Source of the DNA: Hydrogenobaculum sp. 3684
GTDB taxonomy: Bacteria > Aquificota > Aquificia > Aquificales > Aquificaceae
Direction of reading: 5' to 3'
Length of the DNA: 64,000 nt
NCBI RefSeq assembly: GCF_000213785.1
Contig: NC_015557.1
Span: 806,001 to 870,000 of the forward strand
Positions 49,666-50,829 of this stretch are shown here, in pieces. The position numbers and the translations under genes are program-made. The notes beneath the pieces are model-generated. The model saw only the letters and a list, made by a program, of their open reading frames with translations. It was not told the origin of the DNA and did no database searches. Within the stretch, counting starts at the first letter, position 1. Each line of letters begins with the position of its first letter.

Positions 49666-49842
49666 TTATTTCTTAAACACATCCATAAATATTAGTAAGC
49701 CTATAAGTATTGTCTCCGTTACAACACCAAAAATAAACTGAGAGCTGCTTATGTATGGTTTTAATATAATTATTAAAAGCCCGTAAACTATAGCTATTAT
49801 AGTAACTACTCTTGGATTTGAAAGCTTTTTTAAAAAATTCAT
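49666..49842 (-). CDS. Small two-helix membrane protein
   Basis: This 58-residue frame (MNFLKKLSNPRVVTIIAIVY start, IFMDVFKK end) lies exactly between the MBL-fold gene and the APC permease. It starts inside the MBL stop (ATGA) and ends 11 bases before the permease start. Two hydrophobic segments (about 12-28 and 37-53) are separated by a polar turn. No family is recognised. Tight packing in the operon and an uninterrupted membrane pattern argue for a real gene, perhaps a permease accessory subunit. Confidence 0.7.
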   Translation of the reverse strand: MNFLKKLSNPRVVTIIAIVYGLLIIILKPYISSSQFIFGVVTETILIGLLIFMDVFKK

Positions 49843-50594
49843 AATATTATTTTAGCACCGTCAAAGGCTGCTATGGTTTTTACATTTGTTTTATCTTCTA
49901 TTTCTTTTGCCACATTCTCTGGACCAGCTTCAAGCATATCAGAGGCAAAATGCGTAATAATAGCCATTTTTGGTTTTACTATATTTAATATATCTATTAC
50001 ATCGTCTTTACAAAGATGGTCTATATTTTGTCTTTTTCTATAAAAGGTTGTATTTAAGATAAGCGCTTCTATGCTTTTTGGATAATGTTCTACTATATGC
50101 GGTTCAAACTTTGCACATGGATGATATGCTATTTTTTCGTTAAAAACGATACCGTACGTTATAGCACCATGATGAGTATGTTTTTTCAATATATCAATCT
50201 TTAAATCTTTCCAGACATAGCTGGCATCTTCTTTGAAGATAAAATGTTTATCGGTTTTCTTGAGTATAAAATCCAATATAACCTTCGTGTTTCCATAAAA
50301 AGCATCTTCTGGGGCACCTACAGCTAATTGCTTAGTAGATTCTTTTGTACCTACTTTAGCAGACTCAACCATAGTGTTTATATCTGCCGAATGGTCTAAG
50401 TGAATATGAGAAAGAATGAATATATCCATATCCCAAGGTTTAAAACCAAGAGATAAAACGTTTAGAAAGGCTCCAGGACCAGGATCTATATGAGCTGTTG
50501 TGTTTTTGGCTTTTATAATAAAACCACCTGATTTTCTTATATATTTAAAAGTAGAAACACGGCCTCCGGCCGTGCCTACAAAATATATTTCTAT
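49839..50594 (-). CDS. MBL-fold metallohydrolase with probable AUA start
   Basis: The first ATG is at 50429, but conserved MBL sequence extends 55 residues upstream in frame: EIYFVGTAGGRVSTF and HIDPGPGAFLNVL, before the metal motif SHIHLDH (His63, His65, Asp67, His68). No ATG, GTG or TTG occurs in that extension back to a stop. AAAGGAG lies seven bases before an ATA codon at 50594, giving 251 residues. An AUA start, or a sequence error, is required. The metal site is completed by HHGAITYGI and ITHFASDML. The substrate is unknown. Confidence 0.78.
   Translation of the reverse strand: MEIYFVGTAGGRVSTFKYIRKSGGFIIKAKNTTAHIDPGPGAFLNVLSLGFKPWDMDIFILSHIHLDHSADINTMVESAKVGTKESTKQLAVGAPEDAFYGNTKVILDFILKKTDKHFIFKEDASYVWKDLKIDILKKHTHHGAITYGIVFNEKIAYHPCAKFEPHIVEHYPKSIEALILNTTFYRKRQNIDHLCKDDVIDILNIVKPKMAIITHFASDMLEAGPENVAKEIEDKTNVKTIAAFDGAKIIL
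50558..50574 (-). repeat. GC-rich hairpin just inside the MBL-fold gene
   Basis: CACGGCC-TCC-GGCCGTG is a perfect 7-bp stem with a 3-nt loop, in otherwise AT-rich DNA. It starts 20 bases downstream of the proposed AUA codon and encodes part of GTAGGRV. Confidence 0.7.
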
Positions 50595-50616
50595 AGAAAA
50601 TCTCCTTTCCGAGATA

Positions 50617-50829
50617 TCATTCTTCTATTACTTCTGTAGATATAGCGCCGCTTGGGCACTCATCCGTTACTTCTAAAACCGCATCTTGAAGCTCTGGCGG
50701 TACATCTGATTTAACAACTTCAGCTATACCGTCTCCGCGGTTTTTATATATCTCTGGAACCCTATCATAGCACACCTCACAGGCTGTGCATAAATCAGGG
50801 TCAACTATGGTCTTGACGATTTTAGCCAT
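50617..50829 (-). CDS. Small ferredoxin, single [4Fe-4S] or [3Fe-4S] cluster
   Basis: This 70-residue acidic protein carries CTACEVC and a distant CP (DECPSGAI), which fits a single-cluster ferredoxin with C-x2-C-x2-C plus a fourth Cys. It carries low-potential electrons, for example to the reductive TCA oxidoreductases of an autotroph. AAGGAGG precedes the ATG. A TATAAT (50863-50858 on this strand) marks a possible promoter in the 69-base gap after sucD. Confidence 0.88.
   Translation of the reverse strand: MAKIVKTIVDPDLCTACEVCYDRVPEIYKNRGDGIAEVVKSDVPPELQDAVLEVTDECPSGAISTEVIEE

Follow-up and report, generated by a model that had tools for sequence, protein, structure and literature searches.

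Where does translation begin in a gene whose conserved N-terminal part lies ahead of its first ATG? The question was raised by a gene for an MBL-fold metallo-hydrolase found in the window, that is, the whole 64,000-nucleotide stretch analysed here from the genome of Hydrogenobaculum sp. 3684 (1,552,775 bp, a single contig). A first-pass annotation had proposed that this gene starts at AUA, and the observations on which it was based could be read again from the sequence. The 55 codons that precede the first ATG (50429-50427) include no ATG, GTG or TTG, nor does the frame further back to the upstream stop; the AAAGGAG element is located 7 nt before the AUA, with the coordinates, strand and sequence that had been claimed; and the first strand of the fold, as well as the DPGPG motif, are encoded within these 55 codons. 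The in-frame codons running from the side of the upstream stop to the ATA (50594-50592) are AAG AAT GAT ATC TCG GAA AGG AGA TTT TCT, the spacer between AAAGGAG and ATA is ATTTTCT, and 22 nt separate the stop of the preceding ferredoxin gene from the AUA. The parts of the locus are collected in Table 1.

Table 1. Parts of the MBL-fold locus (positions in the window)
Feature	Position	Strand	Remarks
Putative AUA start codon of the MBL-fold gene	50592..50594	-	no in-frame canonical codon upstream; Shine-Dalgarno (SD) 7 nt before; kept in congeners
Shine-Dalgarno AAAGGAG	50602..50608	-	8-nt match is GAAAGGAG
MBL-fold metallo-hydrolase gene	49839..50594	-	251 aa plus stop; PF12706; structure model
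N-terminal part, 55 codons before the first ATG	50430..50594	-	third-position-biased substitution in five species; strands in the model
DPGPG motif, residues 37-41	50472..50486	-	conserved among 109 orthologues
Metal-binding motif HIHLDH, residues 63-68	50391..50408	-	HxHLDH in all 109 orthologues
First in-frame ATG, codon 56, not the start	50427..50429	-	Ile in L005; no SD match ahead
Upstream 4Fe-4S ferredoxin gene, ATG start	50617..50829	-	PF13370 (Fer4_13), 51.6 bits; place of ATG kept in congeners
Mini-ORF MISRKGDFL*	50591..50620	-	present in L001-L003, absent from L004 and L005; not required

The start region in the genus Hydrogenobaculum

The start codon of orthologues had been named in the first-pass annotation as a check, and this was carried out on five Hydrogenobaculum species (L001-L005). 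In all five of them ATG, GTG and TTG are absent ahead of the conserved strand. An SD followed by ATA is found in four (L001-L004), where the leader varies (GGAAAGGAGATTTTCT, CAGAAAGGAGATTTTTT, ACGGAGGGTTATTAAC) and the ATA is retained. The fifth, L005, is about 75% identical and presents the leader TTAGGAG TATTTCT ATT ATA, in which AUU (spacer of 7) fits as a start as well as AUA (spacer of 10). Conservation of the protein begins at the ATA, and the in-frame residues preceding it vary between species. The features by which conserved AUU/AUA-type starts are recognized, that is, the lack of a canonical codon back to the upstream stop, an SD and conservation, are thus found together at this gene.

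The rarity of such an arrangement was evident from a survey of 464 kb of the host genome (about 30% of it, 359 genes), which scanned for non-canonical codons provided with an SD, placed before the first canonical start and lying in coding-like sequence. In this survey the ATA of the MBL-fold gene ranked first by a wide margin as a candidate non-canonical start. In addition, an SD match of at least 8 nt at a usable distance accompanied only 10 of 10,007 sampled ATA triplets (about 0.1%). A separate observation concerns an LptD-like gene (G000:C1:371412, minus strand; loci L162-L166), which presents an apparent AUU start in all five species: ATT ATT/ATC follows leaders of the GGAGGA or AGGGTTT type, the signal peptide is IIKFRILVFLLLIVALS, and the sole canonical codon nearby, a TTG, falls within the hydrophobic core. 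For relatives of this gene in other genera, GTG or ATG are candidate starts.

The 55-codon extension is protein-coding. Within codons 2-55, L001 and L004 differ at 5, 0 and 17 first, second and third positions, respectively, and L001 and L005 at 12, 7 and 27, so that about half of the third positions (27 of 54) differ between the outer species. Residues G7, G10, R12, F16, G23, G24 and D37-P40 are invariant among 109 orthologues, and the final G of DPGPG is present in 107 of them. In an AlphaFold model built with 33 orthologues (mean pLDDT 93.7), residues 2-36 are predicted to form three strands of the core, strands 1-3 (2-5, 25-29 and 32-36).

Two further possibilities were considered for the start region. 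Altered tRNA decoding of AUA was dismissed, since ARAGORN, run on the sampled stretches and covering most of the 45 tRNA matches of the genome, detected three tRNA-Met(CAU) and no tRNA with a UAU anticodon; most of the tRNA genes inspected in this genome are devoid of an encoded CCA. A conserved mRNA structure at the start was not recovered either: z values were about -2.2 and -1.7, yet the folds predicted for L001 and L004 differ. Our search of the literature found no paper describing an AUA start for this gene, and nothing specific on start codons in Hydrogenobaculum; a re-annotation of Aquificales published in 2014 took account of ATT and CTG starts generally (PMC4227106).

Start codons of the gene across the Aquificota

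Of 136 Aquificota genomes, 119 had a match to the MBL-fold gene. Among 110 Aquificota orthologues the start was TTG in 77, ATG in 13, ATT in 10, ATA in 5 and GTG in 5, that is, a non-ATG start in 97, with the proviso that a rule was used to assign starts beyond the genus and that single errors are possible, chiefly at loci where the gene and the upstream ferredoxin overlap. As a background, the 359 genes of the host genome comprise 307 with ATG (86%), 33 with TTG and 19 with GTG, and the SD-supported flanking genes of relatives show ATG, TTG and GTG in a ratio of 33/9/5 (33 of 47 with ATG), so that non-ATG starts amount to roughly 14-30% in the sampled genes. The neighboring ferredoxin begins with an ATG whose place is conserved. 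For the MBL-fold gene, ATG prevails in two genera for no visible reason, and a distant archaeal homolog (L161) also starts with ATG. Avoidance of AUG at this gene in nearly all of the phylum speaks for selection acting on the MBL-fold gene in particular, and lends indirect support to the low expression or IF3 control that the first-pass annotation had suggested as a possible reason for the AUA.

The ten ATT cases (L046, L048, L050-L055, L094 and L095) correspond to genera g15, g16 and g17 of a second family. There, ATT is placed 9 nt after AGGAGG, no canonical codon lies ahead of the conserved strand, and the sister genera have TTG or ATG at that place; in one member, L055, a GTG is found four codons further in. 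In a maximum-likelihood tree, the ATA sequences form one clade (support 100/100), as do those with ATT (98/99), and the tree requires a minimum of 9 start-codon changes, compared with a mean of 31.9 after shuffling, a difference that is partly expected from shared ancestry. As judged from this tree, the putative AUA and AUU starts represent two independent origins. With regard to the surroundings of the gene, several Aquificaceae (L008, L013, L015, L017 and others) carry two ferredoxin genes of the same type near it, and in these the upstream ferredoxin often runs into the TTG start of the MBL-fold gene.

Nature of the MBL-fold protein

The protein matches PF12706 with 42.3 bits (cutoff 27), and so do all 33 orthologues of set A2 at E<=0.001. 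Sequence searches against solved structures gave distant hits only. When the model was compared by Foldseek, TM values of 0.73-0.82 were obtained with YhfI, Apyc1 and RNase Z, and of about 0.69 with PhnP; with sequence identities of 12-18%, the YhfI-like and ElaC-like proteins, Apyc1, RNase Z and PhnP are the nearest solved folds. The protein shares with RNase Z/ElaC and with MBL phosphodiesterases (B. subtilis YhfI, Apyc1, PhnP) the MBL fold with HxHxDH but, unlike them, it has signatures of its own, FLGT[AG]GGR and DPGPG. By its predicted fold, a phosphodiesterase is the most likely class.

An identity as RNase Z was ruled out by the curated score and by a missing motif: TIGR02651 (RNase Z) gave 38.4 bits on the protein and 33 on the genome, far from its cutoff of 292.95, and HEAT, the catalytic motif of RNase Z, is absent, the corresponding stretch being ILNTTF, with N181 invariant. 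The notion that it replaces RNase Z was dropped as well, given that some Aquificota carry both a near-cutoff RNase Z and the MBL-fold gene and that the HEAT motif is missing. In the host genome no protein reaches the RNase Z cutoff, and full-length RNase Z scoring just below it occurs in some genera of the phylum, none of them in the same family as Hydrogenobaculum. The fourth metal-ligand position, residue 160 (HPCAKFE), is Cys in most of the Aquificales orthologues shown and Asp, the usual residue in the MBL fold, in two deeper families.

A probably weak start and its possible meaning

The absence of a canonical start in the extension is all that could be adduced for a sequencing error or a pseudogene, with the true start at an ATG or a protein beginning at Met 50429, and we give this explanation practically no weight. 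An error that restores ATG, which the first-pass annotation had named as a possible refutation, is ruled out because all five congeneric species, each represented by an independent genome, lack a canonical start there; in addition, the third-position-biased change across the gene and the invariant metal ligands indicate that the gene is intact. Its other named refutation, a start at Met 50429, does not hold either: this residue cannot be a general start because codon 56 encodes Ile in L005, no SD match precedes the ATG, and the preceding 55 residues are conserved across the phylum. Because neither of these possibilities holds, translation beginning at AUA 50594, presumably with Met as the first residue, is the best explanation of the sequence data. 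The frame might instead be entered by -1 frameshifting from the 9-codon mini-ORF, or by reinitiation after it. The ATG of this mini-ORF belongs to the ATGA that contains the ferredoxin stop, its TAG shares bases with the AUA and, in L001-L003, it spans the SD. However, it is missing from L004 and L005, which retain the SD and also the ATA, and about 3 nt separate the SD from the site where slippage might occur, a distance too short for a -1 shift as judged by established examples such as dnaX. Such a route is therefore highly improbable.

The AUA could also be a genuine but non-adaptive start, arising from a mildly harmful or neutral change that became fixed a single time, in the ancestor of the genus, and that a good SD or lax initiation made tolerable. 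ATA did arise once on the tree, and the conserved ATT start of the LptD-like gene in the same genomes, with GTG or ATG candidates in other genera, might indicate that the genus is lax. Against this, a single A-to-G transition would yield AUG and is seen in none of the five species, despite the extent of third-position change in the extension; three other genera independently fixed AUU in the same gene, UUG being retained almost everywhere; and among 359 genes no more than two non-canonical candidates were conspicuous. We consider this explanation unlikely.

We hold it probable, and with good confidence, that this is a true AUA start representing one extreme of a phylum-wide tendency to initiate translation of the gene weakly and so keep the protein scarce, plausibly via IF3. 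AUA 50594 would be initiated with the help of a good SD by the ordinary initiator tRNA, whose CAU anticodon would mispair at the third position of the codon, leading to weak initiation. Selection would maintain the weak start, and the metallo-hydrolase would be kept scarce relative to the ferredoxin, which is made from the adjoining upstream ATG. The UUG of most Aquificota and the AUU of the second, independent clade would follow the same pattern. We infer the low protein level, the discrimination by IF3 and the action of selection rather than drift from sequence comparison.

When the initiator tRNA reads AUA or AUU, the third position is mismatched, and IF3 rejects these codons; an AUU start limits the expression of E. 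coli infC and pcnB. By likeness to these two genes, the Hydrogenobaculum start may be a weak, IF3-discriminated one that limits expression; unlike in them, the codon is AUA, not AUU, and infC in Hydrogenobaculum starts with UUG. The classic sign of IF3 autoregulation is thus absent from the genus, and infC was dismissed as a parallel AUA/AUU example. In S. aureus, mapping by Ribo-Ret placed the starts of infC and ccpN at conserved AUA codons and that of cvfC1 at a conserved AUU; reporter activity was about 10% of that obtained with AUG when the medium was poor and, for ccpN, reached up to 30% when it was rich (PMC13009471). The Hydrogenobaculum gene resembles these cases in its AUA/AUU start, its good SD and its retention among relatives. 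It differs from them in that theirs were mapped by ribosome profiling and their weakness measured, while ours is read from comparative data, in that it encodes a metallo-hydrolase, and in that the codon switches between clades (AUA, AUU, UUG).

Conserved AUA/AUU starts are therefore an established kind, known from infC, pcnB and S. aureus ccpN, and the Hydrogenobaculum MBL-fold gene adds one to it. It comes with unusually deep comparative support and with two apparently independent origins in one gene. Since gene finders accept only ATG, GTG and TTG at most loci, such starts are missed and the proteins are annotated in truncated form; here, the N-terminus is corrected in the genus and probably in ten further genomes. 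We would propose, tentatively, that throughout the phylum a single metabolic or RNA-processing hydrolase is held low by its start codon alone, UUG, AUU and AUA being swapped between lineages, in which case discrimination by IF3 would be a conserved means of controlling the expression of a gene that lies outside translation. The conserved AUA of this deep-branching thermophile, together with an independent AUU clade, makes it possible to test why weak starts are needed in some genes.
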